Shown piece by piece: positions 2,645 through 50,786 of a stretch of 64,000 nucleotides of DNA. A program made the translations under genes and the position numbers. Source of the stretch: Straminergon stramineum (lineage: Eukaryota; Streptophyta; Bryopsida; Hypnales; Calliergonaceae); the NCBI GenBank assembly GCA_963920665.1, contig OY987267.1, forward strand, positions 7,812,001-7,876,000, given 5' to 3'. Position 1 is the stretch's first letter, and each line of letters opens with the position of its first letter. Below the pieces are notes generated by a model. It worked only from the letters and a program-made list of their open reading frames with translations. It was not told the DNA's origin and did no database searches.

Positions 2645-2860
2645 CAATGACGCTAGCATGTGAGCATGTGAGCATGAGCCTATGAGCGGTGAGCAAGAAT
2701 TATGTGAGCCTAGAGCCTAGAAATTTAAAATATGATGTTATTCCTAAATTGTTTTTGGTAAAAAAGTTAAAATACAAATGTTTTTTCAACAAAATTTAGT
2801 ATATTTAGAAAAATATGACCTATCACCATGGGACCTATGACTGTAGATTTGAGATTTAAA
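2645..2860. repeat. Element 1 left terminal inverted repeat
   Basis: The left TIR begins CAATGACGCTAG and runs into clustered TGAGC motifs (at least six between 2660 and 2715). It pairs with the inverted right TIR at about 14,340-14,479. Iterated short motifs in Mutator TIRs are plausible transposase contacts; that role is inference. Confidence 0.75.
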
Positions 2861-3165
2861 AGCTTAGGAAGTTGGTGCTATAGCATTTTTCAAAATTTAT
2901 AAAAAGCCACCTCATAATGGACCAATAAAGTAAATGAACAAAGAACTAAGAGGCAATTGAAAATACAAGATGAAGATGAATGCATGGTGAATATTATAAG
3001 ATGTAGAACATTATATACATAATAAAAAATCCTATCAATACAACAAAGGATACATATAGGAATAGGAATATAATATTTTGCAACTAAAATTTGGAAATTT
3101 GGAAGATTATATACCGGTACTACATATCTACTTCATATCATGCTAATATCTATCAACTAACTTGG

Positions 3166-6100
3166 TCACTCGCATGTCTTCATGATTCCGGCAGCAACAA
3201 GTACTTGCTTAACTTCATCCAAGCTAAGGGTAGGAGCGTGGATGAATGCATTTGTCTTATAATCCAATTTGCAGAAGTAACGAAAGATGTAATAAAGGTG
3301 TTTGCAATTTATGTACATGCCACGCTTTCCAATGGAGGTCCCATTCATACTTCCATAATGGGGACAAGTACAAGATGGAAAATTGCAAAGTGTAATGTTA
3401 TAAACCTTTTCATTAGGTTCAATCCCAGATAGAAGTGTAATAATAGCACCAAGTCCAGGGTAAGGAAGGAAGTTCACCCCAGTAATACTTGTAGTAACAT
3501 TCCTTGCACTTTCCCATTGATTGTGGTGATTTTCAGTGGGTGTTTTAGTACTCCGACGAACTTGCTTGCCATTCCGAATGGAAGGGATTCTTTCAGCATG
3601 TGTTGGTCGAGGATGAGTCCACAATACAGGCTCAAATATCTTTGACGAGGTAAAGAGACGTCGAGGTGACATTGGTACACTCGATTGCAAACGAAACCCA
3701 GCTTCTTCAAGCTCTATGATTTCGGTACGAGTAAGATTGGTATTAGTAAGAATAGGCCAGACTTCAGGGATCTCAGGTCGAGTAAGAACATGGGAACGTT
3801 TAGGTCCCATGACACATTGTGCAATTTGATCTACACAAAACCAAAAATCTTCAGTCTGAACTGCCGTGCCTTTATATTCACGCTTTTGCCCTTTGTAAGT
3901 AGGGGCAGCAGTGGATTTACCATGCCTAACAATCAAAAGCTTGCATTTGGCCTGTGTGTACTTTTGAATGGCATGACATTGTTTTCTTGACTTGTGTGAG
4001 ATTCGTGCTATGTGCCACTCTGATGTATCGCAATCTGTTTCCACTACAGATCGGGTATGGGGCATGACTGTGTTAAACTCTTCACATATAGTCTGAAGTT
4101 GCACTTTAGAAATGACTCATCTAGTTTGAACCCGAGGGTGAGAGAAGTTAACCTTATCAGGGTAATGAGAATCACCCTCACAACCAATCGGAAGGTCCAA
4201 TTTCCTTTTACTAGAGCCGAATACCTCTTCCCCCTCCAAGTGCGGAATCCAAGTACAAATGTCTTTCGCTCCAGGCATCTCACTAAGTGTGTCTGCAATT
4301 TTCTTTCCATCTCCAGATGCCATAGCTCTCTTGAGTTTCAAATCTCCTTTGGAAGGGCCTTTCCCAAACGGTCCGCCACACAGATAAGCCCTGTAGTTGG
4401 TCATTTGCATGAAGGCTCGAACCCAATCATCACATGTGGCAACAAACAGGTCAGATCCGCGTTTACCGGAAGCTTGCATCCATTTGTTATGCACAGTTTC
4501 TGCCAAGTTGCATGTTGGGATGTCTACTAGTTCCTCTGTTGTCAATTTATGCAAAGATGGTGAATGAAATTATTATTTGAACAGACAAGGGTATAGAATA
4601 AGAAATAGAAAAGAAGAAATGAGAGTAAAGTTCATACTGTTTCCATAAATCCACCCCATTGGCGATAACGAAAGTGCCAAAATGCAAGCCAATCCTCGAG
4701 TTCACGAATTGCTGGTTTTGATGCAGCTCCAGAAGAGTACCACCAAGCTCTGATTTCTAGGTACATCTTGTCCGCCTCAAACATTGATGTTGCATCCTTG
4801 TATTGTCTGCAAAGTCGGATATGTTGGTTTTGGAATTCCTTGGCAATTAGCTTCTCTGTGTGCTTGTGCATGCTTGTTGCCCAATGGAACAAGCAAGTCC
4901 TTTCTCGGTCCACCATTGGAATGGATGGATCCCTTGATCCATACACAATGCAAACTGCATTAAAGTTGGCTTGGGTACTATCACACATGAATCCCTTGAA
5001 GGTTGGATTCGACACCCCATTTTGTATTATGACCTTATTAAGACAATGCCAGAAAATGATTTGGCCTTCGGTGCCCTCAGTCTGCATATCACATACGGCA
5101 ATGGTCATGACTTTGCAATAAGTGGAGTCATAGACATGACAAACAATAGTTGTCCACAATTTCACCCTCTTCACATGATCAAACATGACAAAGCAGTTCT
5201 CAAGGTCGCCACTTGGTTGCATCCGTCGTACGAGATCGACTCCACTCCCAGGTCCATCCACAAGCATCTTGAACAAATACACCTTCTCTTGCCCTTGTCC
5301 AGGGAAAACACTGTCATGGATGTACTCCATTTTGGCACGTCCCTTCATGTCAAGAATACAATCAATCTCCCCACCACCATTGTTGTTGCTTCGAAAAGAG
5401 GATATTATGTTGCGCACATTGGGTGAGCTAAGAAGCTGGAACTTATCCATGACATTCTCTAATGCATCGCCGTGGAGCATCTCCTTTGGTCTCGATCCAT
5501 TGTGAATAAGGAATGTGTCAAGGAACTCCTTGCTTGTTGCCATGGCAATGGTGGAAGTTTTGGCAATTGGAGTTCTAGCCACTTCGTGAGCGATCAATCC
5601 AGTGATTGCTTCTACAGACTCTCTACACTAGCCGTCTGCAACTGGATGCGAATGGACACCCAAATGGATGCATGCACGTGACAAATATCCTGCTCTAAGT
5701 ACATAATAAATGCGCGAGTTACATAGATTGAGGCAAGTAGGAGATTGTCTACAAACTTTACAAAGCACAGTAGAGTCTAGTGGAGGAATGTGGCCTATGC
5801 TAAAGGAATGTTTGGTGGTCCCAATCCACTCTGTTTCGTTACTTTTCAAAGCTCGTGTGCGGTAGTCACATTTTGTATTCTCACATATCAAATGGCCAAC
5901 ACAATTCGACTTTCTAAACTTTAAACCTAGGTCATTATGGATGTTGGACGTCATTGTGCGACACCATGTGTGACCGTCATACCGTTTATCCATGCCCACC
6001 ATGCCTCTAGCCCCACTTGTAGATGCATGACATGGCGGCAACTCAAAGAGAACATCACCATCAAATCTAGTTGGGAGAAATTGGACTTTCTGATATTGAA

Positions 6101-6788
6101 TGGCATCAAAATCAATCTGGGCAAGTTCATTCCGTGACCCAGGCATTGAAGACAATTTGCGAAGGCATTGCAATACACTTAGGGAATCGCGATGATTGGG
6201 AGGGAGAGGAGGACGAGAAAACCTAGAAGATGCAGGACTATGAAGGATACTACAGAAGGTAGTAGGAAGGGATGACTCTACCATAGATGGCAAAGCAACA
6301 TTTGAAGAAGAAGGTTGGGAAACTGTAATAGGTGTCTCACCTTCAGAATCACTAGATAAGTCTATTACTAGGTCTAGGGACTCACGTTTAACATTGTTGA
6401 CATGGATTAAAATTTTGTTCTTGGAACATCCACTGCCTAGAGACTCCACTTTGACTTGATGTAATAATGAACTTTCAGCATTGGACTTCTCAAAAATAGG
6501 TGTTAGTATTTCAATTGAAGATGGCAAGAGCTCCTGCGAGAGACCATAAACTCTATAGTGTCCTGAAGAAAGAATCCAGTAGAACCCTTCATGATTGCTA
6601 CATCTTGAGTGCAAGATAGATTCCTTAACAACGCCAAAGTCATCTTCGACTTCTTCCTCTACAACAATAGAAGAAGGGCAGAATCCAAAACGAACATGAA
6701 GGAGATGGGCAGGCACATGCACAAAACCTTGACTACCTATTGGTAAAACAAATGGGACCTCATGACCTTTAGCGACAATACTAGCCAT
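3166..6788 (-). pseudogene. MULE transposase (mudrA-like), two in-frame stops
   Basis: The MULE family transposase cuts and joins Mutator TIRs in the nucleus. The reading frame starts at ATG 6788 (MASIVAKGHEVPF). In order it shows an acidic N-terminal region; a zinc-cluster domain of the WRKY-GCM1/FLYWCH kind with the sequence CIHLGVHSHPV (about 5640-5900); a MULE RNase-H core with YDSTYC (about 5130) and GFMCDSTQANF, followed by RTCLFHW (about 4,890-5,000); and a SWIM zinc finger CTC..NCKHLYYIF near the end (about 3,290-3,380). An intron fits from 4637 to 4534 (phase 0), joining GGFMET to ELVDIPTCNLAETVH. The frame is broken by TAG at 5630-5628, inside a conserved block, and by TGA at 4119-4117; both sides continue in the same frame with sensible sequence. 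It is therefore probably dead unless read through. The gene reads toward the left TIR and diverges from the ParB-methyltransferase gene. Confidence 0.85.
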
Positions 6789-7469
6789 AGTGAAGTATTG
6801 GAGGAAATCATAGAGAAGCAACAACACTGAGAAGCAATGAGAACCAAACAATGATGTTTGCAAGTGCAAGGGGTGTGAATATAAAGAAGGAAAGATCTAT
6901 AGGGATGTTCCAAATGAAAGGAGAAATTTTCGTGGATGTAGTAAAATTTGAAATAATATTGATGATGGGAATGTTAATTATTACATATCCTATCAAGATT
7001 GAATATAGAAGAGGGTATATGAACAACATTTGAAATGGAGGTGGGTATGGCGGTGTACTACATGGCATCAATAAACACATCACCAGTAATAAATGGATTA
7101 TAATACAAAGGACGTATGAAATTGTGTCAGACCCTATTGGCATTGTTATAAATAGCACTGACAAGAGATGATGGATCATCATGCATTGTATTGCATGATG
7201 ACCATAACATGCTTACATTTATAATTATATATCTAGAGACAAATTAAGAATCTTGTGGTTGATAAAGATATCAATAACAGACAAAAGTAGCCGTTACTTA
7301 GTACTAAAATGAAACAGTAAGCTACTAGAGAGGAGTTGTCACAGTTTCATATAATATAAAAGCATGTTGAACGGAATGAAGTAGTATATAGAAATGCATG
7401 TTTGAAAGACTGTGTGATGTATCATAGAGGATGTTGCCATTATAATGCCTTGGTAGTTGATTATTTCAG
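6789..7469. promoter_or_regulatory. Divergent intergenic region of Element 1
   Basis: About 680 bp of AT-rich DNA separate the start of the leftward transposase from the rightward open frame. It probably holds both promoters. No TATA box stands out clearly enough to place a start site, and no repeat was found in it. Confidence 0.35.
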
Positions 7470-7889
7470 ATGCAAGAAAACTTTTTTTCTCCATTATTAG
7501 TGTTGGCCACTCCAATTCAGGGTAGAAAAAAGAGGAGGAGAAAAAGTAGCTTTCGTTATTCAAGTAGAAGGCAATTGTTAAAGGCTAGAATGATTAGACG
7601 GTTGCCTCGAATCACTGAAGGTGATATGTCGAGCACAACGAGGAATTTAACTTACATAGGTGTTGTTTCACGTGAAACAATTGGAGAGGATAATGCGGAG
7701 GTTGAACCCATTTCAAACCAAGTTCAACCAAGTATGCCTTGTAGTTGTAGTGATTGGGATCAATACATTAACAACGAGGAAGAAGAAGAAGAAGTAGATG
7801 AAGAAGAAGACCACGAGCTTGAAGCACCACCACCAACATTGGAGTTGGAGGTAGATCCTGAAAGTACAAATAGGATGGTAAGAAAATAA
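7470..7889 (+). CDS. Small basic-then-acidic protein, unknown
   Basis: A 139-codon frame lies inside Element 1. Residues about 20-30 are very basic (GRKKRRRKS, a likely nuclear localisation signal). The C-terminal half has a long glutamate/aspartate tract (about residues 104-120) followed by a proline-containing acidic tail. I recognise no domain. The first codons may belong to an upstream untranslated region or an exon boundary (a CAG precedes GGTAGAAAAAAG near 7520). It may be a small accessory protein of the transposon or an upstream exon of the ParB-methyltransferase gene. The parS-like 16-mer at 7664-7679 lies within it, encoding VSRET. The composition suggests a nuclear, disordered protein; function is unknown. 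Confidence 0.4.
   Translation: MQENFFSPLLVLATPIQGRKKRRRKSSFRYSSRRQLLKARMIRRLPRITEGDMSSTTRNLTYIGVVSRETIGEDNAEVEPISNQVQPSMPCSCSDWDQYINNEEEEEEVDEEEDHELEAPPPTLELEVDPESTNRMVRK
7664..7679. promoter_or_regulatory. Exact match to bacterial parS consensus
   Basis: TGTTTCACGTGAAACA is a perfect 16-bp palindrome identical to the widely conserved bacterial chromosomal parS consensus bound by ParB. It contains a plant G-box core, CACGTG. It lies about 700 bp upstream of the gene with a ParB-like domain in the same transposon. One copy was seen. Whether it is a functional site is unknown; a G-box bound by bHLH or bZIP factors, or chance, are the alternatives. Confidence 0.5.
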
Positions 7890-8354
7890 TGATCCCAAGT
7901 GATATTAACTTTGAATGTATGTGAAATATTTTATGAGATGCAATTTTTGCAATTTTTCATGATATTGTTCACGTCGGAAGCACGATTCCAACGGTATATA
8001 GCATGCAAAAAACGGACACATATTGAGTCTTTTACGGCCTAGAAACAAATTCAGCATCTTGGAATCTTTCCTGAAATCTTCAGATTTCGCAGATTTTTAG
8101 ACGAAATCCAGCCCTTTTATTTGTTGTCGTTTTTGCTGATTTTTGTAACATTGCTCGAGAGTCAAAAAATTCTTTAAAAAATTGGAGTGAATTTGATGCA
8201 CATAATTTGTAGGCTAAAAAAGTTTTGGCCTAGAATTTCAAAAATTGAAGGAGTCATTTAAAAGATTCTCTTGAGGTAAATCTACCAATCTCTTCCTTGT
8301 TTTTTTGTGTTTTTTTGGACACTGACCTAAACCTAAACCTTGTAGCATCTTCTA
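7890..8354. other. Leader or promoter region of the ParB-methyltransferase gene
   Basis: This AT-rich stretch lies between the small open frame and the ATG at 8355. GTATATAGCAT near 7995 could serve as a TATA element. No repeat or coding frame is supported. Confidence 0.3.
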
Positions 8355-11300
8355 ATGTTGTCTTCGAAGGTGCCCAAGCAACAACATACGGAAGAAGAAG
8401 AAGAAGAGGAGGAGGAGGAGGAGGAAGAAGCTACCACGATGGACGAAGGAGAGGCAGCGGAGGCTGCAACGGAATCCGCGCGGCAACAAGATGAGCATGG
8501 AGAACCAATTTGCAAGGCAAATGAGGGGATAGCAGGTGTGCGAACTAAGACAAGTCTAGGTGAGTGTTTTAGTTTCTACCTTCTCAATGGCCACCCGTTA
8601 ATGGCGGCACTTTTTTGGATTCTAGTTTGCTTTCAACGTAGTTCTGATTTAGTAAAATCCTCTAGTTTTGGGGGCCTTCTCAATGGATGGCCATTAACGG
8701 CTGCACTTTCTGGGATTGCGCTTTAGGTCAATAAATGCTCCAAAATTTGTGAACTCCTGAAATTTTTGACCTGCTTAGGAGCACAGCCGTTAACGGCTAC
8801 GGTTTTCAGGCTTCAGATTTTTTTCCCCTCAAATCGACAAACTCGTGAACTCTTGAAATTTTTGTCCCGCTTTGGAGCACAACTGTTAATGGCAGTGGTT
8901 TTTAGGCTTCAGATTTTTTTCCCCTCAAATCAACAAACTCGTGAACTCTTGAAATTTTTGTCCCGCCTTGGAGCATAGCCATTAATAGCTGTGGTTTTCA
9001 GGCTTCAGATTTTTTTCCCCTCAAATTGACGAACTCATGAACTCCTAAAATTTTCGTCCCGCCTTGGAGTACAGCCGTTAATGGCTACGGTTTTCAGGAC
9101 TTGGATTTCTTCTCTACATATGTTAGGGACTCTTATCTTATGCTGAAATTTTGGGCCATCCTAAACCACAGCCGTTAACGGCCACAATTTTGGAGACGTA
9201 CATTTGTTGCCCATATATAGTAGACATTTCTTTTCAATTCAATTTCTTAGGTTGTCCCAAACCATAGCCGTTAACGGCCATGATTTTTGTGACTCACATT
9301 GGCTACCCATATATGCTACAAAGTTTGTCCAATGTTGAAATTTTTGGACTCTCTTAGTGGAACATGGTTGCTATATTTAGTTCTATATTATATGATACAT
9401 TGATACAAATTACAACTGCTTCTAACATTGCTTTTGATATCATTTTAGAGATGTTGACACAAGAAGATCTACAAGCACAAGGAGTAGACGTTGCACTTCG
9501 GCCTCTTTCTCAAGATTAACTTGAGTTACAATTGCATGGATTTCTAAAGAAGGAGACTACAAATACTTCTTCTCGTCTTGAGTGGTTGAGGTATCAACCA
9601 AGGGCAAAATCCAAAATCAACATTCCTTTATGTCGTATGATTTCTTTGCCGGTTGTGAGGCCTTTTTTGAAGAATGATGTGATGAGCCTAGCTACACACT
9701 TTGTTACTTGTGGTTATATGGAAGGAAATGGAGTTTTTTATGTGTCCTTGGAGGACAATGAGGGGAAAACAGTACATGTCACAGATGATATTGTTAAATC
9801 TTGGAGTGCCAATTGGGTGCGTGGAAATGATGCATTTGAAAAATAATTGCAAAATGATGAAGATCTCAAAGTGTTCTCTGGCAAGATGTTTATGGTGTGG
9901 GATGGCAATCATCGTTTACAAGCATGGTTGCCTATTATCAACCGAGATCATGTGCATGATTTCACATGGCATTGTGCTGTTGAAAGTATTATTTTGGAGG
10001 TTAAGGAGGACATTGCAACTATGTTGGCAGCATTACATGAAGTCAATTGGTAAGCCCTTATGTTCCTTTATCTATTTCTTTTTCATTTCATTTCATAATC
10101 TCAAGAGCTTGTTTGGTTTGGACCATTGCAATTGTCATTGTTCTAATTTTTTTCTTAATAGGATGTTTGCTTTACATATTCTAACACAATATATCTTGTT
10201 TTACGAGGAGAAACCAAAAATCCCATGTTTCCATAAATCTTGTTCACAAACTTTATCGCATTCAAAGTATTGCTGGGCAACCACTCTCGTATTTTAAAAA
10301 ACTTGTCTCCAACGAGGATCTCGTTGCAGCTGAAGCCAAGCAAAAGTCAAAACAGAGGACTTGGTTCACTTTGACCATTGAGGCTCTAAATGGAGTTTTA
10401 TACCAAGTTCATTTCTAAAGTTTATTTTCTTTCAATTCTTAAGTCATTCTCTTGCTCTTGTTGAATTGAATTCACATTGTCTTCTACATATAATTGTTGT
10501 CATCATGCCCAATGTTGCTTATTCTAACACATCATTCATTTTTTCCAGCAAGAGTTGGGCGATGCTGTTGCTACTGCTCAAAGAAAGTTTTATGAGAAGT
10601 ATCCCAATCCAGCTGATTGGACTCCAAGTGCAGTTGATGAATGGGTCTCCAAAGCTATTGACAAGGTGAAGGTAGCTTTTCATTCAAAATTGAGGAAACA
10701 ACTCCCAATTGTAGATCCAAAGCATACGGCGGTTTTTTTGAGGAAGTGAAGCGTCACTATGAAACTCATGATGAAAATCCAGAAATGACTCAAGAAAAAC
10801 TCTGGATGTTGGCAACTTCAGCAATGGACACTTCTATGAAGATCAAGTGGTTGGAGAGGTGGAACAAGTCTCCTACTCTTCGAGAGGCTCTCAAATTCCC
10901 TAAACCAAAATTCAATGATATTGACTTTCCTGAGTGGCTTCATAAAGCTACATGGTGGGCTCAGGTAAGTACTTCTCTTTTTCTGTTATTGTTTTACTAT
11001 TATTTCTTTGAACCTTTTCATTCTATCATAACGTTCTTCTAATTGAGTTTTTGTATGTGGCAGTTGGCTATTGAGACAAAGAAGCTATTCGATGCTACAG
11101 TTGCTGATCTAGATGTATCTATTAACTATCTTCCGGATGGTATGGATCCTTTGCCCACTATTTTTGATTATGTGGAGACGATGCGCATATTGTTGTGGGA
11201 TACTGCATTCTTCCGTGAATTTACTGTGGATAAAGGGGTCCATAAGAACCACAAGATTGAGAAGCAACTCAACTTCAAACCAGCTATGCAAAGGGTGTTT

Positions 11301-13490
11301 TATAGGTACTTCAAGTATGTTCTTTTCCCTGCTAAAGCCATTTCCAAATCTCCCACTTTCTTTGCAAATTATTTGGACAAAGAAAGTGAAGAGTGCATGT
11401 TCACAAAGGGGATCATGAAATCTTGGGATCCCTTGCATTGGGAAAAGTGTGGGTGGTATTTAGATTGTCCCTCAAAAGACCTCCCACTTTTGACATTGCC
11501 CTTCGAGATGCCATTGAACCCGCCCTCAAAGGTACAATTGTAATTGTTCCTAAACCCATGGACAAGGATGCAACCAAGAAGCCCAAGAAGACAAAGCCTA
11601 AGGCAAAAAAGGTAGTGGTTGAACTTGACAATTTTGATGAAGGTGTGCCAGTTCAACACAGTCTCCAAAAACTTGTTGTTCCTGGGCCTTCTTCTTCAAA
11701 TGTTGAGGTGATATCCCCTGCTTCAAAGCGGCAAAAGACATCTCCTACTCTTGAGGTTCTCATGCCAACCTCCTCTCCTATCTTTGAGCTACCTCCCAAG
11801 CTTAGAGGTATGATGAGTACTTTGACTCCTTTGCCTACAAAGCATACATCTTTGGATTTAATCTTGAATGATTCTTTTGTTAGAATCATTGAGGAGAAGA
11901 AGAAGAATGGTACCTTTGGTGCACCATATGATGACATTGTGGCTTTTCTATCAAAGGTGAGTTAATTCTTTTTTTTTTTCTAATTTCATGTTTTATTGTT
12001 ATCAAATTTTAGTTACATATTCTATAAAATTCATCTCTTCTAATTCATGATGTTTTGTGACTTTGACATCTCCAATCATGAATTAATATTCTTAAAATTT
12101 GTCTTTGTAGGTTGGTCAAGGCAGAGAGTTCTTTTTTGATGGAAAAGTGCAAAAGAGACCTGCTGCGGACCTTATTATTGCAGAATACCCAGATGGTCTT
12201 CGAGTTCCAGGGGGCTCAAATCCACCATCTCAAATTCCACATTGGAATGCCACGATTCCAAGTTTTCTTCAAGTAATGATGGCATTCTCTCTTACCTATC
12301 TTCATGATGATGGAGCATTCCTTCTATTTTATCCTGACAATTCTACAGTGAAGAGAGAAGTGGTAGGATTCTTCAAGAACTACAAGTTCAAGATCAAGGA
12401 TGAGTGGACTATCATTAACTACTTACATTTGGCAAATCCTATGAACCCATCTAAAAATGTAAGTATTCATTTCAAGCTTTCATTTATGTCATTGATTCAA
12501 TACTTATTACATTTCCACTGATTTTATATACACTTTCTAATTTGAATTTGATTTCCAAACTCTGAAGTTCAAGGCTTTATTGTTGATTCGATCATTTACC
12601 TCTCCCATTGCAACGCAACCTCAAGAGTTTGTAATTACTATTGATCCTTCAATTCTTGAGGTTGATTTAACCACGGACGGTGTTCTCTTCAACTCTATTA
12701 CTACAACAACTCAGTTATGTAGAAAGGAAGATGGCAAACCATGGAGGGGTGCTAAAGAGAAGTCAAAGGTTCTAATGAAGCTTTTCATTCATTGCTTGAG
12801 CCCTGTAGGTGGCATTGTGGCAGACATGACTGCCTCTACAGGTATTGTAATCTACAATATTGAATTATTGTTGTCTATTGTCAATTTCATTTTTTAATCT
12901 ATACTTCCATTTGAATGTTTTCATAATGTTAAAATTGTGTCTCATTTAGGTTCTTCAATAAGAGCGGCTCATTCATCTAATCGCCATATCCTAGCATTAG
13001 AAAGTGATGCCAAACTCTTTGATCAGGTACTAAAGCCTTTTATAACACCTACAACTATCTCCAAGACTCTTGATTCTACTACCATATGTGATGGCATGAA
13101 GATTGATGATGATTCTCCAATTGAAGATGTCGCACTACTTGACTTATGTGAGTAAGTTTTATTTATGTTTTCTTTTTTAACAACTTTAGTTATAAATTTT
13201 TTTCTTTTGTATTTTAATTTTTTACAACATATTCTAATATATGGTTTGTCGTTTGCAGTTGGATGAATCCATTGCCAAGGCAAACTTTGCCTTTTTATCA
13301 ACACCGTGGATTTTTTAGAAGTCCCTCCACTAGTCCTCGTGGCCTCCCTATTTATACTAAAGATATAGCATTAGCTTATGCTAATGCTTCATCTGATTCA
13401 TCTTCAATTTCTCTATCACCTTGTAGATCTTATGATCCTAGAGTATGTTCTTACTTTGAACTCAGTGCATCTGAGTCAGATGATATTTGA
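8355..13490 (+). pseudogene. ParB/Srx-like domain fused to permuted DNA methyltransferase, nine exons, broken
   Basis: Exons by splice sites: 8355-8559, 9449-10049, 10162-10406, 10549-10964, 11064-11956, 12111-12458, 12568-12841, 12950-13151, 13259-13490. Phases match at the junctions checked. Exon 1 is glutamate-rich. Exon 2 holds a ParB N-terminal-like domain: a start resembling IPLxxI, then MVWDGNHRLQAW (residues about 217-228), the GxHR signature of ParB and sulfiredoxin folds. A helical middle follows. Exon 5 has a basic KKPKKTKPKAKK stretch. Exon 6 has DLIIAEYPDGL where methyltransferase motif IV (DPPY-like) is expected. Exons 7-8 encode VADMTASTGSSIRAA and ALESD, which fit motif I plus the acidic ribose-binding residue. 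Motif IV preceding motif I is the permuted (beta-type) order. ParB-methyltransferase fusions are known in bacteria and phages. Breaks: TAA at 9517-9519 and 9844-9846; frameshifts near A5 at about 10,218, T7 at about 10,734, and between 11,460 and 11,500. Motif IV is degenerate. Probably inactive here. Confidence 0.75.
8592..9281. repeat. Eight phased palindromes, 96-bp period, in intron 1
   Basis: Intron 1 (8560-9448) of the ParB-methyltransferase gene contains eight copies of a GCCGTTAACGGC-type palindrome. The TTAA centres are at 8599.5, 8695.5, 8791.5, 8887.5, 8983.5, 9079.5, 9176.5 and 9272.5, so the spacing is 96 bp throughout except for one 97. Several cores are perfect (8786-8797, 9171-9182, 9267-9278); others differ by one or two transitions. 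The intervening DNA is also repeated (TTCAGGCTTCAGATTTTTTTC-type blocks), so this is a diverged tandem repeat whose palindromic core is its best-kept part. Confidence 0.85.
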
Positions 13491-14339
13491 GTTTGTTTTT
13501 ATGATTTGATATTCGATTTCTATTGTCTTGTTTTTCAAATTGAATCTACCTATATATGATGTGGCAAAAATCTGATTTCATGGCCTAAGACTTCACCTTA
13601 TGCCCAAATTGAACAATAATTCTTAAACCTTGAATTGTACTCCATCATTGAACTTTTTAAAATTTCACAAAGAAGAGTTCAACAATGAAACTATTAACAT
13701 TGAATCCATTATTTAGTCTATATAATAGAAATGATATTTATTTCTAGAAAAAAAGTTCAAAAAAGACAGTTCAAAAAAGAAGGACATCAACTTACTAGAA
13801 AAATGTTTGGTTATGTCATTTGGGGATAATACATTTATTTGGTATATAATATATGACTACTATGTTTATTTTCAATATTCAATGTCTAAGATATTTTTGT
13901 TCTTTATTAAAAGTATAGTTATAAAAAGAAAAGAAAAGAGGTGGACCATTTTCATCCTTTAAATTCACATAAAGGCCAATGATGAAGACTATATTTATCA
14001 CTCAATCATTCAAAAGCATTTTGTGCATATAATATTTAGAACCTTTGTCTATTACTAGATTTCTGTTCAATTTTAGTTTTTTACAACCTATGTTTTTTTC
14101 TCTTTCTATTTTATACTTTACAAATGTCTCATTTATGATGGTGTTATGATATATTGCAATTTTACATTTCTATGCTTTGTTGTGAGACACCCTAAACCAC
14201 TACACCTATTTTCATTATGTGTTTGATTACAAATATTGTCTACTTTGATTATATCTCAAGTTTTGGATATATATTTGTTCTATTTTTTGGTACAAAATAG
14301 AAAAGTGGCATATTCGTTTGTTGTTCATTTGAGCTTTGG
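13491..14339. other. 3' region of Element 1, no gene
   Basis: AT-rich DNA lies between the last exon and the right TIR. It probably includes the 3' untranslated region of the preceding gene. No open frame or repeat is supported. Confidence 0.4.
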
Positions 14340-18049: not shown

Positions 18050-18085
18050 TACTTGCTTTGTGCATACCATAACTTTACTTACCTT

Positions 18086-31700: not shown

Positions 31701-31818
31701 CTATATAGGACTAACCGATAATGCAGTGAGAAATGATAGGATTTATATCCAAGAAGGCAATAATCGAAGTAGTCACTCTGTGGGCCAAGCAAATAAAATA
31801 GGAAATGAAGTCTGAAAT

Positions 31819-40800: not shown

Positions 40801-43364
40801 ACTACAATTTTTCTTGTCCTTTGAAATCAATCTATGTTCCAATGTATTGAAAGAGATGAAAGTGTACCTCATAGTAGGACATAATTATTTGTTTTTTCCT
40901 CAAATTGTTGAAAGATAGAACCTCCCCTCTAACTTGGAAGTATTGAGAAAGCCTACCTTTAGAAGTTCAACCAATTGACCTAATTTTAGAAATTATCGGT
41001 GGATATATAATGCACTCTAAAATGATTCTATTGATCCTATTGCTAGATTCCCTAAAATATAAATATTTATGAAGTGAACAGTCATTTCACTTTCCATGCT
41101 TGACAAGTGTAGAATTTATGTTTTCCATGGTTTACAACTAACGAGTTGGGATATTAGGGTGTATGGTTGGCACACAATGAGGTAGAGGTAGAGGTTATGT
41201 AAAATCCTAAACATATGAAGTTTCTATATAGATATTCAGACAATGATCAACTTCAAGTACATAAAAATGGTCATTTATTTACTATAGTGAGTATGTATCC
41301 ATTTCATTGACTGTGTCAAATGACTTTACCTCTTAATTGAAATGAAGTTGGATTTCATGAAATGTAGTTTTAACTACCTACGATTATAATGTATAAAGGA
41401 AAATAATATCGTCATAAACAAAGAATTTCAAGAATTTTTCATGAAAATCGATTTGAAAGTTGAAAAAAATGGTTCTATTTTACGTACTTAGTTACCTCTA
41501 CAAGTACCATTTAGAATATTAAAAACTAATTACTTGGAAACAACTTACATTTAGTGGTACAATTATAAATGAAATATGTAATTTTGGGAATACAAATTTA
41601 GTAAATTTTGCACTATGATGCTTGCCCATCACAAAATTTAGCAATTCTTCTCATCATTCTTTATCAATAGATCCCCAAAAATTTGACATTTACATTTTTG
41701 AAAATCATTAGTAACATACATCTTCATTTTGGTCTCTTGAGGTGTAAGAATATTTGTTCAATCTACGACCACAGTGGTCACTTGATCAAAATGATAAAAT
41801 TAGACAAACTTTGGAGGGTTTAAACCAAAATTACCTAGTTAGTCTGTCCAAAAAGTGATACCATAAGCTGACCATTACCCCTTCCAATGCTTTTACTATA
41901 TGTCATGATTATCTGTAGAAATCTCTTGATGCTTATGTTCATCTCCAAATGTTTGCATACATCTCCAGATGTTTGCATACGTTTGCTTTTGCTTTAGTTG
42001 GCGACCTCTAAATCTTCAAAGTTGATGTGTTCATGTTCTAGATACAGAAGAAGGGTTTCAAGCAATGAATCATTGAGATTGTTGACAATGTAGCTGTATT
42101 TCTTGTAGATTGAATTTTGAGATGGGTTTACTATCTAAATTTTTGGTGATCTTGCAGTCATCCAAATTCAATTTTCAATAGCAAATCCCTTTTTTAAAAC
42201 AACTATTTGTGCATTCACTGAGTTCAATGATTGGGCATTATTTCCAGATATATATTATTTAAGATGAAAAGAAAAGAGTGAAAGAAGTCACTTGAATTTC
42301 AAGTCATACTTCTAGATAACGATGACCACATTCATTGGTATTATTGATGTGTACTAGGGTTTAGTTTTTATGTAGGGGCTAAGGTTGAGGGAGTAATGTG
42401 TTGTTTGTTCAATACATTGTCACCTTTGGAAGCATCTACAAATCTTCATGACCTTGTTTCAAGTATGACTTCATAAAGTAATTGTGGATGAAATTCTAAA
42501 TATTAACTATGGAGATCCATTATTTGTTAATCCCTTGACTCCAAAAAATTATTTACGTGTGTCAGTGGATAAGTATTCATGGCCTTCCTACGTGTGTAAC
42601 TTTATATTAAAGTGTTTGTCGACAAAATTCTAAATTATCTTTGAGATCCTTTAGTGTCTATAATCCTGATTCTTGTAAAATAATCCTTGGTCTGAGACAA
42701 ATAGTTTATGTCTATGTGCAATGTACATATGTATCAATATTTGTAGAATACAAAATTTGGCTAACCTCTATCACGTGGCTAATAGCCTCATTTATTTATT
42801 TCCACAAGTTAGATATTGTACAAACTAAAACCGATGTAAACTTAACAACAATAATTAGTATTCCTAAGTATTGGGTAGTATATATATATATAAATATACT
42901 TTGACAGAAATTAACATTTTCTTGGGTATAAGTCACGTGTTATTTCATTAGAAGACTGAAACTCACTAGATTTCATAATAAAATAGGTTAGAAAACAATT
43001 CTAGATTAATAATTACGTTAGGTGCATTGAAACTACAACTTACTTAATTTATGATCATTCTAAGGGTTAATGTATCATTAGGGAAAGTACTAAATGGACA
43101 ATACGTTCTTATCATTGTGTGTTGAGGTTTACGGTTCCTTTTAGTATGATTATTGCCAACTCAAGTGACATGAATACTCTCCATCAGCCTTTAGAAATAT
43201 GAGTTTTAAAATTTCTTCACTATTATTTGAAATATAATTATCGAGTTTTATTCACCTAGCCACATGGTCCAGAATGTTATCTACGTTTTCCATGATGTGA
43301 AATATTAATAAGGATCCGCAAATATTTAGTATTCTCTCAAAAATAATTGGAATATAGATTGAAA

Positions 43365-43365
<1 letters not shown>
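37816..43365. other. AT-rich palindrome-free middle of Element 2
   Basis: No supported gene. A C16/A9 run lies at 38,730-38,754. A short direct repeat, CATCTCCA(A/G)ATGTTTGCATAC, lies near 41,941-41,980. Composition is unlike the flanking parts of Element 2, which suggests inserted repeat DNA. Confidence 0.4.
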
Positions 43366-43431
<66 letters not shown>

Positions 43432-43452
43432 GTGTGTGTGTGTGTGTGTGTA
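43366..43452. repeat. TA then TG microsatellite
   Basis: About 60 bp of uninterrupted TA repeats are followed by about 22 bp of TG repeats. Confidence 0.95.
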
Positions 43453-44818
43453 CACGTTTCATTGTGAATCTCGAAATTAAAATAATATGAATGTAAGGAA
43501 TTGTTTGATTGAACTACGGTAATTGAAGATTCCTTTTGGTCATTGGATGAATTCCTTCACAAAAGCTCTTTCAATTTGTACACAATAAGTAAATGAAAAC
43601 AAGATTGCAAAAATTAAAAATAAATCCTTAGTACTAACTTCAGTACCTTCCATTTTTTCCTTTTCTTCAAAACGGGAGATTCGATTTACGGGGAAATAAG
43701 GTAGACTAGCCTATTACAACCTTGATTTTGAATCTAAGTATATTGGGACGACCTCAAGGAGGGGCACATAATTTTCAGAGGTGTGCATGCCTTTCATGAA
43801 TGAAACCCAACTACAAGAATAGTTTTCGGATGAAAATTGTAATTTATATGAATTTCTGAAGTGGTATACCTCAAATTATAAACCCGCTTGTAGACTACAG
43901 TGATAAACGTCCTAAAACAACCAAGAACCGCCTTGACTTGTACTTATGAGCACTTCAATTTCCATCAATGAAACACTACCATGTTACCCAAGTTGGAATT
44001 AATGCACAGTTAAGATTGTCAGGAAAGTAAATGTATGTACATAAGTTCTACGGCTGAGATGGAGCCCAAAATAGTATGGCGGGAATAGGAAGGTAGTGCA
44101 AATAGGTTGGTCTACCTTCGGATCCCAAAGCACCATAAAATAGAGTTGACCAGGCTAGCATCTTCGGAAGGCAGATCATGAATCCACGAGCCCATGAAGG
44201 CGCAGAATCATATCGGAATTGATGCCTTGTCGTCCAGAATATCGTCCTTTGGTCAAAGTTTGTAATCAAGAGCCGCCACAAAGGAATCTTGTGCACATGG
44301 CTGTGGCGGGAGTTCAAATTCAAAAATGAACTCCCTCCTAAGGTGTCGCCAACCATCTCATTCTCGGTCCTTATGTTTCTGTTGAACTTCTGATGAATCC
44401 TTTTGCACATGTCCACTCTCACAGCTGGGGCGATTCACGAGGGTGACGAAGTTTCTTGGCGGCCCTGTCTTTCCATGTGGAGAAGTTCTTCTTCGACGGT
44501 GGCTTCGAGCGACCACGCGCCATTGACAGTTCCAGGTATGCAACTTCTTTAGTGTTCCTTTCGATTATTTATGTAGGAAAGTCTTATGACAAATGACTCT
44601 TGAATCAATTGTCACATCACTTAAGATCCAACAGACCTAGTTTACTGGTTGAAGAGGATTTGATCGAATCGACAGCTCCGTTGCGTATGGCTATTTGCAG
44701 TAGAAAACTAATGTTCTCTTGGACAAGAGGTGAAGGAACGCCATGTACTGTTGCTCTGTTGGATTGAATGAGAGAAAATAGATCAGATTCCATCGTGAAA
44801 CGGATATCAATTAAAGAA
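43453..44818. other. Intergenic, possible remnant reading frames
   Basis: GC content rises from about 44,040. Minus-strand frames at 44,048-44,543 (start MARGRSKPPSKKNFSTWKD, then a shifted frame) have a plausible basic start but no recognisable domain and would need a frameshift. I cannot support a gene call. Confidence 0.25.
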
Positions 44819-44826
44819 TATAAATA
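44819..44826 (+). promoter_or_regulatory. TATA box candidate for the DUF7869-type gene
   Basis: TATAAATA, a canonical plant TATA sequence, lies about 1.3 kb upstream of the ATG at 46140 and just upstream of the palindrome array. If used, the array would sit in the transcribed leader or first intron, mirroring the ParB-like gene. Confidence 0.35.
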
Positions 44827-44928
44827 GGTCAGCTGTAGTTAAGTATTCGTAGAAAATACATATCAGGGACGCGTACGAGTACAACGCGTACAGGATGCTT
44901 CATATTGGTACATGACTTCTTCATTACC

Positions 44929-45807
44929 CATCTGGAGATCTCCAGATGGTTGGAGACGCGGTCTACAAACCTTGAATAATCGTGACAGAATTGGGTGAGG
45001 CATAAGGAACGTTTCCGCCATGATTTATCATCTGGAGATCTCCAGATGATCCTAGTATAAGAATTGTAGAGCCAGTAGTACCCCATCATAATGCCAGGTC
45101 ATTGTAGTTTTGATGGAGTTTCCTCATCTGGAGATCTCCAGATGGAGGCAGCTTATGAGCCAGTTAACGATACCATGATGAACAAGGATGAACGGGAAAT
45201 GTCTACACTAGATCTTCGAAGTTTAGTTGGATCTTCGTTATCTGGAGATCTCCAGATAGAGGCTCACGTAGGACTAGTTTACGGCATCGTACTTAACATA
45301 GATTGTTGCCGCGTCTCTATGCTGGATGAACAAAGTTTACTTTGATCGCAATCAGCTAGAGATCTCCAGATGAAGTCGGATGTAGGATTAAATGTAAATG
45401 ACATGGTATAGTAGGTTGGATGTCGCTACTTTGTGGTAGATCAACAAAGTTTTGTCTGATTCTTCTGATCTAGAGATCTCCAGATGGGAGATGCTGTTAG
45501 AATCATTTGACAGAAATATGGAAAATTAGGGTGCATGTCTTATCCTAATGCTAAATCTCCGGTGCTTAGTTTTATATTTTTTATCTAGAGATCTCCAGAT
45601 GAAGGCGGCTTTTTGAATAGTAGACAGCGACATGATAAGATAGATTATATGCCGCGTCCATGAAATTTCTTGAAGTGCCATAGCTCCATTACGTGATCTC
45701 TAAATGCTGCTATATTTTGGAACTTGTTTCGTGAATAGGATAAAACGTGATGGATTTGGCATATATGGTTTGACGGGTAGGACACCCTATCTGGAGATCT
45801 CCAGTTG
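44929..45807. repeat. Eight-copy palindrome array upstream of the DUF7869-type gene
   Basis: Copies start at 44929, 45029, 45125, 45239, 45353, 45467, 45582 and 45788. Four successive intervals are 114, 114, 114 and 115 bp. The first three copies are perfect; later ones carry CTGG to CTAG or end changes. The intervening DNA is partly repeated (GATGAACAAAGTTT and GATCAACAAAGTTT). Together with the intron-1 array of the divergent gene, this brackets the centre of Element 2. Confidence 0.88.
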
Positions 45808-46139
45808 AGGATGGATTCTTGTAGCCCCGAGTATACGAGTCACCGACTGGGTGGTCTTCGTGTGTCTTGCTTATTAGATGATGTCTTCTCGTTTCGAAAG
45901 TCGTCGAATTTTATTAGAATGACGAGTTCGTCTTGTAGGAATTTATGTGGTCTTTGTATTTTCATAGGAGTGTTTCTTTTTGTAAAGTGTCCAGGGACAT
46001 CCACATACAATTAGGACCACAGAAACCCTGATTTGCAAAATAGGATGATGCTCAGTGCTTACAATGCTTGTTTGATTATCAGGTTTGTTGACCCTGGGAG
46101 GTGTCCCAATACTCTAAGGTCATTTCCAGGGAAATTCAG

Positions 46140-49100
46140 ATGGATTCCTTTGGTGGTTGCCATGGAACTACTCTCGTTTCATACTCTAGTAACCCACCGA
46201 TGGAAAAAGCCTCTGAAGTTTCAACCACTCGATGTGAGCCGTTTCACAATGGAGATGAAGTCAAGCTATCTGTTCCTGGATTTGGTGAAGTTGGAGGAGG
46301 ATTGGTTGTTGATGCTTGTCCGCTAGGCCAATGGCTTGGGGTGGACATATCTTTAGAGCCAGGGCTTTTTATTTTGTTGCGGCCGCATACTGTTTTTCAA
46401 GAAGCCCACAGTATCCCTCTATCCCCCTCCCAAAGGGGTATTATGTCATTGTGGGAGGCCATTGACCGGACTATATTGTGGAACACCAATGATGTGAGGA
46501 AATTATTTGATGATCCGCTGATGGATATATCTCCATTTGTTCCTCAAGAGAATTGGATTGGGCTTGAAGTGCATCTTCAGAATTGTGAGGGCACTGTTGA
46601 GGCGTCAAGTAGAATTAATTGTTGGAGGTCGGAAGATCATTTCCAGGATGGAACACTTGGCGAGGAATATGTGGGTGTAACTATGTTGGATGTGTTTTGG
46701 GGGAACAAGGAGGCTTTAATGACCCACGCTCGGTGGCCAATATCTTCTTGTTGCTTTCCTAGTGGCCGCTCTTTGAAAGAGACAATCGCCTATTTTGCCG
46801 CCATCCCTGTTCCTAATGATCCATTGGCATATCTAGGAGGAAGATTGAAAGCGCCTTACCGATTCGTCAAGCGGAAGCCTAGTGTATGTGTCAAGGAGTC
46901 CTTAGTCGCCCGTAAAACTCAAGATTCTGAGATTTGGAAGGTTAGTTCTACCAGATGCTGCAATAGGTTGTATTGCCAATTTTTTTCTCATGAGCAAACA
47001 CTAATGATAAGGCAGAGATTCTATTTGAAGTCTTTTGAAGACAGACGTGAATACGGCGTCAGTGCCCGTGGTCAAATTCACCATTTTGACAGAGATCAGA
47101 ATCGAAAAGTCATTACACTAGAAGGTGCGGAAGTATGTATTCCGACATGGTACATAATTCACGAAATCTCAAAGTCCACTTATCACAGTTATTCACTCAT
47201 GTACAAAGATGGGGTTCTTTCGGGGACTCATGGAAACAAGGGAATTAAACGACCTCGGATTGGAACCGTTCAAGTCACTGGAACTATGAAAGCAATCATA
47301 GACGAGAGCGCTGATCAAATGCCACACCAAATGCGCAGCATTGGTCATGGACGAATGGACACTCTCAAATTTCTACCTGCAGGAAATAACTGGAAGCGCT
47401 TGCATACTGAGGCACACGAGGTAGTTTTTCAACTTCTATTCAGTGTTGTGAATCATCTAGAGATCTCCAGATGATCCGACCACAACTTGCATTACGTACT
47501 AGTTGAGGAATTCTCATTTGCCTTTGTTTCCTTTGAAATTACATTGTACCGCTCCAGCAACTCATGCATGTTTTTTCGGGGTTGCGTAGTTAAGTATTGA
47601 CTATGGCCTTCCGCCAGTGAGTCAGTCCACAATTAGTCGAATCAAGAAAGAGCACTTTAACAATGTCTCCATCAAGCCTGTTGGAAGTTCTTTTGCAAAA
47701 TGTACCACCTGCAACGAGCTTCAACAGTTTATATTGAAATCACCAAAGGGGAGCCCCGAGTCCGTGGAGTTTATGAAGCAACGGACTGAACATCTTAATT
47801 TGCAAGCCTCTTGCCGTCGCCTATATGCATCTTGGCGTGAGGAGTCCAAGAGGAATCCCTTGGAAATTCTTTGTGTAATTCACGACAAAATGGACATGTC
47901 AAAGACAGCCCTTCCAAGGATGCGCGTGACAACAAAGGCCACACAAGGTTTGGGTCAAATTCCGATGAGTGTTACTGGAATGGTAGCTCATGGTCAAGTT
48001 GATGGTGCATACACGCGTTATGCCCCATCTTGTTGGCTAGCAGACTCGAACTTCACAATATCCTCATTGGCTAGATTGTTTCGTCGACTGGAAGGTCCAC
48101 CAATTCGAGAGACCGGTGACCTCTTCCCACATCCGCCGGCAAACCCTCTGTTTGAGGCACTATTATGAGGGAAGTCAAGATGCGTAGACTGTTTAACCCT
48201 AACAGAACCATCAGCCAAACGTGGATCTTGCCCCCTTCCTAGAAATTTATACCTCCAGCTTGACAACTCTGCAAAGGATAACAAGAACCAGTACCTAATG
48301 GCGTTCTTGTCCTTGTTGACTGCACGTGGTGTCTTCAAGGAAATTCAGGTTGGGTTCCTACTCGTCGGACATACTCACGAAGATATCGACGCTTATTTCA
48401 ATCATCTTTCGAAGGCCTTGAAGTCGAAGAACACTTTTGTAGTTGCTGACCTCATGAAAACCTTCATGCAGTCTCAGGAAATGGCATTCATGCCAGAGTT
48501 CATACAAGAGGTGGCGGACTTCAAGTCATTCATCAAGGATTATGTAAACAATGGCACCGCTAGATTAATTGGATTGGGAGAAATGCATCTTTTCAAGTTC
48601 TATGTGGACAATGATGGTGTCCCCATCATGAGATACAAAAAGTCTGCTGTTGATACACAATGGTTACCAGCTGATAAACCATCTCTTCGCCTCTAGAAGA
48701 AAGACAGTAATGGTCAGCCAAGGCTTCCCCCGGGTTGTCCAAAGCCTGTTCCATTCAAGCCTATGTGGGGAAGCAAAGTTCCAAGCACGACCGGGAATCA
48801 AGAGAAGGCCGTGGAGTTGGCAAGGAAAGCTACCCTAAACAAGAATTTCATTATGGTAGGACTTGAGAAGTACCTACAGTACTGGCAAAACAGTATGTCC
48901 AAGTGTGAAGGATTTGCAACGGCCTTCAGTCCATACGTGGATTATTGGAATTGCGTGTTGGGGGAACTGAAGAAACCAGTACCTGATTGTCCTCCAGAAT
49001 TAGTAGAAGGCTTTTGGCCAGAACACGATTGGAGGAAGCCACTTCATGAAATCCCTCATCAGTCATTAATGGTGAATCTTGTAGATGTCATTCCTGAAGA

Positions 49101-49524
49101 GGAGGACCGAGAACCGTATTGTGGCCCAGCAAATGAAGTGCCACCAGAAAGCTTCAATCCTTGGCTTGACATACATCCAGGCTCATGGATTCTTCTCAGA
49201 CCTAAAGACCCCTCAATTTGTGCTGTTTGGCAAGGAAGAGTTTTGTCCAGCGTGTGCAGAGTGCTAGGAGATGAGAATAACGAGAAGTTTTTGTTGCAGT
49301 ACTGGAGACCGGATAACTCCGAAGCGACTTTGGAGTTAAGGTACCGGAATTGTTGGTATGGCAAATGGGTTGTTGAGAACACTTCTCCTACATGGGTGGA
49401 TGCAAATTGTGTAGTGTATTCAAATTGGTCTAAGATAGTAGATCCAAAATCAAGGACAATTCCTAAGAAGAGTAGGGAGGCTACCTTGGTGAATTTGAAT
49501 AGGGCGAATGAGGTAGATCCTTGA
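46140..49524 (+). pseudogene. DUF7869-type transposase-like gene, two in-frame stops
   Basis: Exons: 46140-47420 and 47590-49524, joined in phase 0. The intron carries one palindrome. The start is chosen at ATG 46140 (MDSFGGCHGTT), after an acceptor-like TTCAG. The N-terminal part has NGDEVKLSVPGFGEVGGG. The middle has RCCNRLYCQFFSHEQ and VCIPTWYIIHEISKSTY, typical of this family. The second exon has FAKCTTCNEL, HDKMDMSKTALP (about 47,881), LDNSAKDNKNQY (about 48,257) and LVGHTHEDIDAYF (about 48,367). The ordered D, D and H/D motifs resemble an RNase-H-like core, so a DDE-type transposase role is likely but inferred. The C-terminal 200 residues contain WLDIHPGSWILLRPKD and an aromatic-rich module. 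Stops: TGA 48166-48168, TAG 48694-48696, both inside continuous homology-like frame. It reads toward the right end and diverges from the ParB-like gene. Confidence 0.75.
47454..47473. repeat. Palindrome in the intron of the DUF7869-type gene
   Basis: CATCTAGAGATCTCCAGATG, one transition from perfect, lies within the intron 47421-47589. Confidence 0.85.
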
Positions 49525-49551
49525 CTGAGTTCTGTGTCCTGCTAGTAAGGT

Positions 49552-49571
49552 CATCGGGAGATCTCCAGATG
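49552..49571. repeat. Palindrome just after the DUF7869-type gene
   Basis: CATCGGGAGATCTCCAGATG, one mismatch, lies 28 bp after the stop codon. Confidence 0.8.
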
Positions 49572-50459
49572 CATTTTCTATCTGCGCTTGTGAGGATAGG
49601 TGAGGACATGAGGTTCTTATTATACAAACCTCTTTCTAATTGTAATCAGAAAATTCAGTGGATTATTCAACAAAGTTCTGTTTGATGTTATGTGTAAATA
49701 TAACACATCAAGAGATTAGGTGTAGCGTTCCAACTATTCATTTCTTCGATGTTGGAGAATGGAAACCCGGAAGCCTCAATCTATACTTGGCTTTGTATTT
49801 GGCATTGTCTTTAATTGCTCTCATTTCTTGGAAGTGAACTCGTGCATATTTGAATGAAAAGAATAATTGCATGCTTAGAAATGACAAGCATTTGTAAGTT
49901 ATGAGTCAATAAGATTGTCTTTCATGCCAAATTTAGTGTTATGTCATTGTTGGGTAGGCCTACTTATATTGTACCATGTATGCATTCATCTTGGTATCTT
50001 GAATGAATGATTGACCAGATTAATAAGTGCGCTCCTCTAGACAACAATGTTGAACTTAGACTCACTTCTGACACTCACTTTCTAGACTTCCGGGGTATTG
50101 GACTTTGTTCTTCTAAGTTACTATAAATTACTTGAGGTATTTAGTTAGTATTGGAGATCAATTGAGGTGTATATGGTATCCCACATTCAATAATTGATCA
50201 ATTGCTTGGGGGTGGGAGCCATATTCGCTTCTATTGTTTGTCATCTAGAGATCTCTTGATAGGTAGTGTCACGTTTTCTATGTTGAACAATGATTGGATG
50301 CAACCTTCCTTGCCATAGGGATAACTCAAGAATTCCTATCTAGAGAACTCCTGATCAAATTATAGGAATTCCTTTGCATAAGGATGTATTTGAGACACTT
50401 CTAAAGAAGATGGGCCCCAAACTATATAATTTTTTTGCTCTCCAAGCACAAAAAGCAGT
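49572..50459. other. 3' flank inside Element 2
   Basis: No gene. Contains a degenerate palindrome at 50,242-50,261 and TCTAGAGAACTCCTGATC near 50,339. Confidence 0.4.
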
Positions 50460-50740
50460 CCTTAGAATTATTACAAGTATAGAATTTGGAGCATGTGAAG
50501 CGTGTATACAACTTTCTCACAAGAGTTCTCCAAGTATAATTACATATACGGTAGAATTTGAAGCACATGAAACATCAATATTACTTAATTCCAGGAGATC
50601 TCCAGATGTAGGTACATATAGGGTACAATTTGAAGCATGTGAAACATCAATATTACTTGATTCCAGGAGATCTCCATATACATCAAGGAAATGGAGAGAT
50701 CTCCAGATGCAACACTAACCATCTGGAGATTTTAGTAGTT
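50460..50740. repeat. Right subterminal repeats of Element 2
   Basis: Three diverged units of about 70-75 bp contain GAATTTGAAGCA(T/C)(A/G)TGAAAC. The last two end in CCAGGAGATCTCCA half-palindromes. A frame through them (50,374-50,718) is repeat-driven and not supported as a gene. A final half-site, CATCTGGAGATTTT, lies at about 50,720. Confidence 0.65.
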
Positions 50741-50756
50741 TTTAATTTCTGGACTT

Positions 50757-50786
50757 CTCCAAAGTCCAGAAGTAGTTAAATGTGGC
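50757..50786. repeat. Element 2 right TIR
   Basis: Inverted partner of 25916-25945, ending GTAGTTAAATGTGGC. The adjoining CTGGACTTCTCCAAAGTCCAG-like sequence is itself an imperfect hairpin. Confidence 0.75.

Follow-up and report, generated by a model that had tools for sequence, protein, structure and literature searches.

Introduction

Can two transposons that move by different transposases share a means of recognising their own DNA, and could such a means be built on the fold of bacterial ParB? This question is raised by a 64,000-nucleotide stretch of the moss Straminergon stramineum (contig OY987267.1, positions 7,812,001 to 7,876,000 of the forward strand; hereafter the window, with positions counted from its first letter), in which a MULE-like transposon, element 1, and a transposon with a DUF7869 transposase, element 2, each possess an accessory gene divergent from the transposase gene and a family of palindromes of their own. 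Our tentative answer, to which we give somewhat less than an even chance, is that each transposon carries a self-recognition module, consisting of the divergent accessory gene with a ParB/Srx-fold domain and the element-specific palindromes in non-coding DNA, which would change the chromatin state of the element. The predicted fold, the arrangement of the genes, the site families and the positions of the sites are computed, and weakly so the methyltransferase-like region of element 1; that the accessory product recognises the palindromes of its own element is what we infer from them.

The escape of transposons from silencing is understood at the level of protein and site in few cases, VANC acting on VANDAL elements being one. 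If the proposed module exists, algal and probable plant transposons would share a second, unrelated anti-silencing solution, the published idea of self-binding and self-marking proteins would gain candidate binding sites and the ParB fold would have an unexpected use in eukaryotes.

Two transposons with different transposases

2645..14479, no strand assigned: element 1, MULE-like transposon with inverted ends and the 10-bp target duplication TTTCTCAACC
3166..6896, minus strand: transposase gene of element 1, open reading frames (ORFs) 6896-5631, 5627-4635, 4569-4120 and 4116-3169, with stops and a presumed intron between them
25914..50788, no strand assigned: element 2, with 32-bp terminal inverted repeats (TIRs) and the 4-bp duplication TTGT
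46092..49521, plus strand: transposase gene of element 2 with a DUF7869 domain (PF25273, E 4.4e-43), stops present

The initial annotation of this DNA had proposed two unrelated elements, and they are indeed distinct. The inverted ends of element 1 (2649-2694 versus 14429-14475) are 87% identical; the target duplication on either side, TTTCTCAACC, is perfect over 10 bp and fits the MULE size range of about 9-11 bp; the 32-bp TIRs of element 2 are 97% identical and flanked by TTGT, and the two transposases differ. The label MULE is based on ends and target duplication because no Pfam transposase model matches the transposase ORFs of element 1, and for the joined protein an E limit raised to 10 gave none either. 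Near the C-terminus of this transposase a CxC...CxH arrangement was spotted by eye, which we take to be SWIM-like. A 4-bp target duplication is typical of the Sola superfamily; element 2, where one is observed, is at most a candidate member. A literature search found no paper on DUF7869. Both copies are decayed, element 1 by two in-frame TAA codons in the ParB exon, later frame breaks and a stop in the transposase, element 2 by stops in the downstream part of the accessory gene and in the transposase.

A predicted ParB-fold domain in each accessory gene

7461..7886, plus strand: possible first exon of the element 1 accessory gene, an ORF of 142 amino acids, basic then acidic, adjoining a good donor, GTAAGA
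8355..8559, plus strand: acidic exon of the element 1 accessory gene before the palindrome intron, with GT/AG splicing and a phase continuous to the exon at 9449
8560..9448, plus strand: palindrome intron of element 1, 889 bp, with eight palindromes of the GCCGTTAACGGC type at 8594, 8690, 8786, 8882, 8978, 9074, 9171 and 9267
9449..10049, plus strand: ParB/Srx-fold exon of element 1 (DGNHRLQAW), with two in-frame TAA in the present copy
12111..13152, plus strand: DNA methyltransferase-like region of element 1 (PF01555, E 4.9e-4, 20.6 bits, below the cut-off of 26.7)
35030..35076, minus strand: short first exon of the element 2 accessory gene (MEPDRGKRILPLWDD..), 47 nt, with a GTAAGT donor and a phase continuous to the ParB exon
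33989..35029, minus strand: intron 1 of the element 2 accessory gene, 1041 bp, in which 14 palindromes recur, mostly every 51 bp
32704..33988, minus strand: ParB-fold exon of element 2 (GGQHTVEA), open, with the ParB N-domain at about residues 240-391 of the translation of 33990-32707

The exon boundaries of both accessory genes are predicted from the sequence. That both elements possess a divergent gene with a ParB/Srx-fold domain had been suggested from the sequence, and structure prediction, run as a check on the fold, returned it for both domains, the predicted structures matching ParB N-domains best. The GxHR motif, which had been ascribed to both, is found in element 1 (DGNHR) and not in element 2, where the arginine is replaced (GGQHT). 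The exon 9449-10049 of element 1 encodes FSGKMFMVWDGNHRLQAW; a protein search with the exon read through its stops found 125 relatives up to 84% identical (120 listed), and in the alignment of 48 sequences (47 relatives and the query) every residue of DGNHR is at least 90% conserved. The first exon and the ParB exon of element 2 join into 444 stop-free codons, which encode YYIIGGQHTVEAYRIL, and all 17 relatives found for the ParB exon were aligned. Two of these relatives match the 'ParB-like partition protein' profile phrog_1033 weakly (E 0.011 and 0.04), and two match DUF6551 with a best E of 0.029. Among viral proteins a fold match was obtained to the phage protein A0A0F6WDY6, named DNA methylase (E 2.4e-3).

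The match of element 2 emerged only after VIA re-ranking, as Foldseek with the whole model placed no ParB among the best 50 of 654 rows; the model exceeds 400 residues, a size at which domain-wise folding is advised. Searches of PDB sequences with the element 2 exon and both profiles gave nothing relevant.

A methyltransferase-like region and a parS sequence in element 1

The PF01555 match of element 1 spans model positions 152-218 of 221, roughly the last 67, and the matched part contains a motif-I-like stretch, PVGGIVADMTASTGSS (ADMTASTGSS), ahead of which lies the motif-IV-like AADLIIAEYPDG (AEYPDG), so placed that the motifs read as the permuted order of the beta class. The exon with motif IV has 82 relatives. 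Thirty-five of them were aligned with the query, and across these 36 sequences Y, P, D and G each reach a conservation of 90% or more; the motif is thus conserved yet non-canonical, the canonical form being (D/N/S)PP(Y/F/W). None of the 36 aligned sequences was matched by methyltransferase models when this exon alone was scanned, and searches of NCBIfam and PDB with the methyltransferase-like region gave nothing relevant. A single accessory gene for the ParB exon and this region is assumed, because the exons between the two parts are broken. Pfam recognised no methyltransferase in element 2, and a hidden one was sought and dismissed, hhalign of the downstream region against the motif-IV alignment of element 1 giving 0.1% probability. 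Pfam matches to DUF4097 and cupin in the read-through of the element 2 intron were set aside as artefacts of a translated repeat array.

Within the 142-amino-acid ORF at 7461-7886, which has no Pfam match and lies upstream of the ParB exon, the 16-mer TGTTTCACGTGAAACA at 7664-7679 is embedded in a perfect 18-bp palindrome (7663-7680) and is exactly the canonical bacterial parS sequence; in the literature searched, 7 papers contain this 16-mer along with the term 'parS'. It is expected about 2.5e-5 to 3.2e-5 times per window and was noticed post hoc in a list of 21 palindromes; it may be coincidental. In element 2, parS finds no counterpart even when 3 mismatches are allowed.

Palindrome families in non-coding DNA

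26289..26890, no strand assigned: left subterminal 90-bp tandem array of element 2, with imperfect palindrome copies
31824..32548, no strand assigned: five palindromes of element 2, within the intron that follows its ParB exon
44934..45802, no strand assigned: eight palindromes upstream of the transposase ORFs of element 2
47459 and 49557: palindromes of element 2 in a presumed intron of the transposase gene and just 3' of this gene
50480..50704, no strand assigned: right subterminal 72-bp repeats of element 2, with three palindrome copies

The window has 21 perfect palindromes that measure 14 bp or more and contain at least 4 G+C, against a mean of 3.05 and a maximum of 5 in 20 simulated sequences. 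The family of element 2 is spread over the element: the palindrome at its best is ATCATCTGGAGATCTCCAGATGAT, intron 1 holds 14 of the TCATCTGGAGATCTCCAGATGA type, 13 of them 49-54 bp apart, and GGAGATCTCC with at most one mismatch has 41 matches in the window, compared with a mean of 1.34 and a maximum of 5 in 100 shuffles. Forty of these 41 lie between the TIRs of element 2, the remaining one at 63841. The 40 are distributed over the left subterminal array (5), the positions 27490, 28050 and 29785 (3), the intron after the ParB exon (5), intron 1 (14), the DNA upstream of the transposase ORFs (8), the transposase gene or its immediate vicinity (2) and the right end (3). In element 1 all eight palindromes are in one intron, spaced by 96, 96, 96, 96, 96, 97 and 96 bp; with at most 2 mismatches the window contains 6 matches, all inside the array, and with 3 mismatches 13 were observed against 5.12 expected, a number reached by one of 100 shuffles.

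The regularly spaced arrays described by the initial annotation are thus present, at 96 bp in element 1 and mostly 51 bp in element 2. Their assignment to intron 1 applies to 14 of the 40 sites in element 2, the other 26 being elsewhere, and the array of element 1 may be in intron 2 because the upstream ORF 7461-7886 with its good donor may be exon 1.

The coding 32% of element 2 contains none of the 41 listed in-element sites (the 40 and a two-mismatch copy at 26745), with the reservation that the non-coding status of 29785 and 47459 depends solely on the chosen exon ends and that 28050 is just beyond an ORF. For the 16 sites outside arrays reported by TRF this avoidance has P = 0.002 if the sites are independent, a single diverged array ahead of the transposase supplying eight of the 16; the P for all sites is smaller, but inflated by duplication. 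These 16 sites share 20 bp with dyad symmetry and little besides, their flanks being unrelated. In the array that precedes the transposase, similarity is 88% among the cores and 32-51% among sampled spacers compared without gaps; a gapped alignment of adjacent units gives a higher spacer similarity, at the cost of many gaps (363 matches, 145 mismatches, 43 gap events). Judged by the sequence, conserved cores amid diverged spacers would look like a bound site.

The substitutions in the sites have a pattern of their own. In the element 1 palindromes (8594-9278), 8 of 10 are C-to-T or G-to-A at the two CpGs, and in the core of the element 2 palindromes (28050-49566; 31 sites) the commonest change is a symmetric C-to-T at CAG/CTG, a CHG context, with 12 of 46 substitutions. 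Both patterns likely reflect the decay of methylated cytosine in silenced plant DNA.

Other features of the window

28894..31661, minus strand: downstream coding blocks of element 2, stop-interrupted, no family found
28085..28765, minus strand: NLI-interacting-factor/CTD-phosphatase-like ORF at the 3' end of these blocks (PF03031, E 7e-18; TIGR02251 below cut-off)
17476..18652: nearly self-complementary, foldback-like inverted repeat of 1.2 kb with 84% identity
23401..24235: remnant of a Tc1/mariner-like transposase (DDE_3, E 2.6e-9)
53784..55551: multi-exon gene of a SAR1-type small GTPase (PF00025; best PDB matches SAR1), the only clear host gene seen, which marks the host as a eukaryote

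The HAD motif is DxDx(T/V), and the ORF 28085-28765 has DLNGLL at the expected position; it is perhaps a pseudo-phosphatase carried by element 2. Between 34825 and 44933 element 2 is devoid of sites, and the AT-rich, palindrome-free stretch at about 36.4-44.0 kb within this part probably stems from the nested insertion of a different repeat; pieces of 36580-37816 resemble pieces of 17567-18671 at 70-76%.

Traces of the palindromes in relatives

For relatives of element 1, palindromes were sought in the protein read-through of the intron. A motif filter placed 67 of the 120 listed relatives, having missed at least P0026, a relative without a trace by eye, and 11 of the 67 were usable, each having 10 or more residues ahead of the exon and the 11 together 359 such residues. 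Scans of viral contigs with the queries A1 and A2 and with the palindrome, and of genome contigs with A1 and A2, confirmed no relative, these collections being without plant DNA. The traces that were found, counted below, are hints that other copies may carry the same sites.

Discussion

In the self-recognition model, the palindromes of an element would be bound by its own accessory product, which would probably act as a dimer or in some larger assembly, and the chromatin of the element would thereby be altered. The likeliest route would be to keep the silencing marks of the host away, the role of VANC on VANDAL elements; DNA marking through the fused methyltransferase of element 1 is the alternative. 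The intronic sites and those that precede the transposase would let the accessory protein regulate both genes, with autoregulation as a by-product, and the ParB N-domain might serve as an NTP-dependent clamp or dimerisation switch, another part of the protein reading the DNA. Self-recognition for anti-silencing or marking is favoured because the arrangement of sites in element 2 matches that of the VANC21 motifs in VANDAL21. The protein/site module envisaged at the outset is therefore plausible, more so for element 2 with its sites throughout the element; the functions in segregation or replication named with it are poorly supported.

Several observations weigh against self-recognition. Sequence profiles alone name neither domain ParB. 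Bacterial ParB reads the palindromic parS through a separate helix-turn-helix domain; in the accessory-gene pieces scanned no helix-turn-helix exceeded the Pfam cut-off, one weak match having E 0.13, and because none was detected with confidence a ParB N-domain alone is no proof of site reading. The regular spacing is the expected outcome of tandem duplication, and the arrays have 0.18, 0.30 and 0.28 gap events per mismatch, which does not set them apart from other decayed repeats in the window (0-0.27), so that no selected spacing is claimed; for element 1 the whole-window count alone is not strong, and the even spacing is the remarkable feature. Among relatives, a palindrome trace is present in two of the 11 usable for element 1 (P0019 with RPQPLTATI versus KPQPLTATI in the window, and P0114 with AVNG; nine have neither), and a near match in one of the 17 of element 2 (P0001, HLGISR, about 12 residues after the exon).

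One rival is that no link exists: the transposons would have captured the ParB-like genes as cargo, and the arrays would be tandem repeats of the ordinary sort with a palindrome in them by chance. The arrays are tandem duplications, their spacing is by gap counts no more constrained than that of other repeats and the evidence from relatives is thin; however, the scattered sites of element 2 retain the 20-bp dyad despite unrelated flanks, 40 of 41 lie inside the element, and 125 relatives of the element 1 ParB exon together with 82 of the methyltransferase-like exon indicate a widespread gene and not a one-off capture, so that we judge the absence of a link improbable. A better case can be made for a transposition factor like En/Spm TnpA, in which the palindromes would be bound by a protein that brings the two ends together and controls the element promoter; it might belong to the transposase. 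Sites in the subterminal repeats at both ends of element 2 (26385-26835 and 50594-50695) and upstream of the transposase are as such a factor would have them. On the other hand, most sites of element 2 are far from the ends, intron 1 having 14 and the intron that follows it 5, with others scattered; in symmetry the subterminal copies rank among the lowest (12-16 of 22 positions), and no match to the element 1 palindrome with up to 3 mismatches occurs near the ends of element 1; this explanation appears unlikely, though far from negligible.

Palindromic 6-bp cores are typical methyltransferase targets, and the accessory ParB-like/methyltransferase protein might methylate adenine or cytosine at its own palindrome (core GTTAAC or AGATCT), an activity of the kind proposed for transposons of algae. 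The PF01555-like region of element 1 and the architecture described in the available text of PMC12477816 speak for this, but with a non-canonical AEYPDG, a Pfam score under the cut-off, nothing relevant in NCBIfam and PDB and no methyltransferase recognised in element 2 it is rather improbable. A segregation or replication module of the ParABS type could draw on the ParB fold and the one exact parS 16-mer of element 1; however, no ParA ATPase was found in the part of the ORFs scanned with Pfam, a confident helix-turn-helix is lacking, parS is not matched with up to 3 mismatches in element 2 and integrated elements need no partition, which makes such a module very improbable indeed. Self-recognition might also be taken much further, to a ParB-type NTP-dependent DNA clamp on eukaryotic transposons that would load at element-specific palindromic nucleation sites, spread and shield the element from silencing, and that would have joined two or more transposase superfamilies in independent events, each time with a co-evolving palindrome, element 1 retaining a genuine parS from a bacterial or phage source; in this extended form we hold it to be distinctly improbable.

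Comparison with known systems

With bacterial ParABS the two elements share the fold of the ParB N-domain, palindromic sites and, in element 1, one exact parS, but they differ in the lack of a confident helix-turn-helix and of ParA among the ORFs scanned, and the palindromes of the arrays are not parS. The ParB fold is also shared with the phage ParB-methylase A0A0F6WDY6, which is a phage protein and was compared in its ParB part only. En/Spm TnpA, the fold of which differs from ParB, has repeated sites for an element protein near ends and promoter; element 2 likewise has sites near ends and promoter, but the sites of both elements are mostly internal.

VANDALs, unlike the two elements, are not known to have TIRs. 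VANC21 of VANDAL21 binds its motifs and strips methylation from its own family (PMC5735166; PMC10398659). An accessory protein encoded by the element and targets that grow by tandem repeats are the likeness (PMC5735166), and in element 2 it extends to where the motif lies, namely introns of the accessory gene, the DNA that precedes the transposase and the non-coding DNA of the termini; in element 1 the motif is confined to one intron. In contrast, the VANC domains, DUF1985 and DUF287, were not matched by Pfam in the accessory pieces of either element, decayed genes that were scanned piecewise, and the VANC21 motif, YAGTATTAY, is a short sequence where the two elements have long palindromes.

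In Ectocarpus, the element Sola1-1_Ec32 has a ParB-like gene that lies opposite the transposase and is joined to a DNA methyltransferase; for earlier cases in green and red algae Iyer 2011 and Petroll 2025 are cited, and such proteins have been suggested to bind and epigenetically modify their own transposon (PMC12477816). The statement in the initial annotation that no description was known therefore falls for the type of protein; it stands for the pairing with element-specific palindromes, as the searches made, in a literature that lacks most subscription papers, showed neither a ParB-like transposon gene paired with palindromic arrays nor two transposase families sharing such a gene in one genome. 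Judged by the available text, the moss elements differ from Sola1-1_Ec32 in their MULE-like and DUF7869 transposases, in that no methyltransferase is recognised in element 2, in the non-canonical motif IV of element 1 and in the element-specific palindromes, which that text of PMC12477816 does not mention. They agree with the algal genes in a ParB-like domain encoded on the strand opposite the transposase, and self-binding with self-marking is proposed for both. Element 1 most likely belongs to the algal ParB-methyltransferase kind, and element 2 is a variant of this kind without a recognised methyltransferase.

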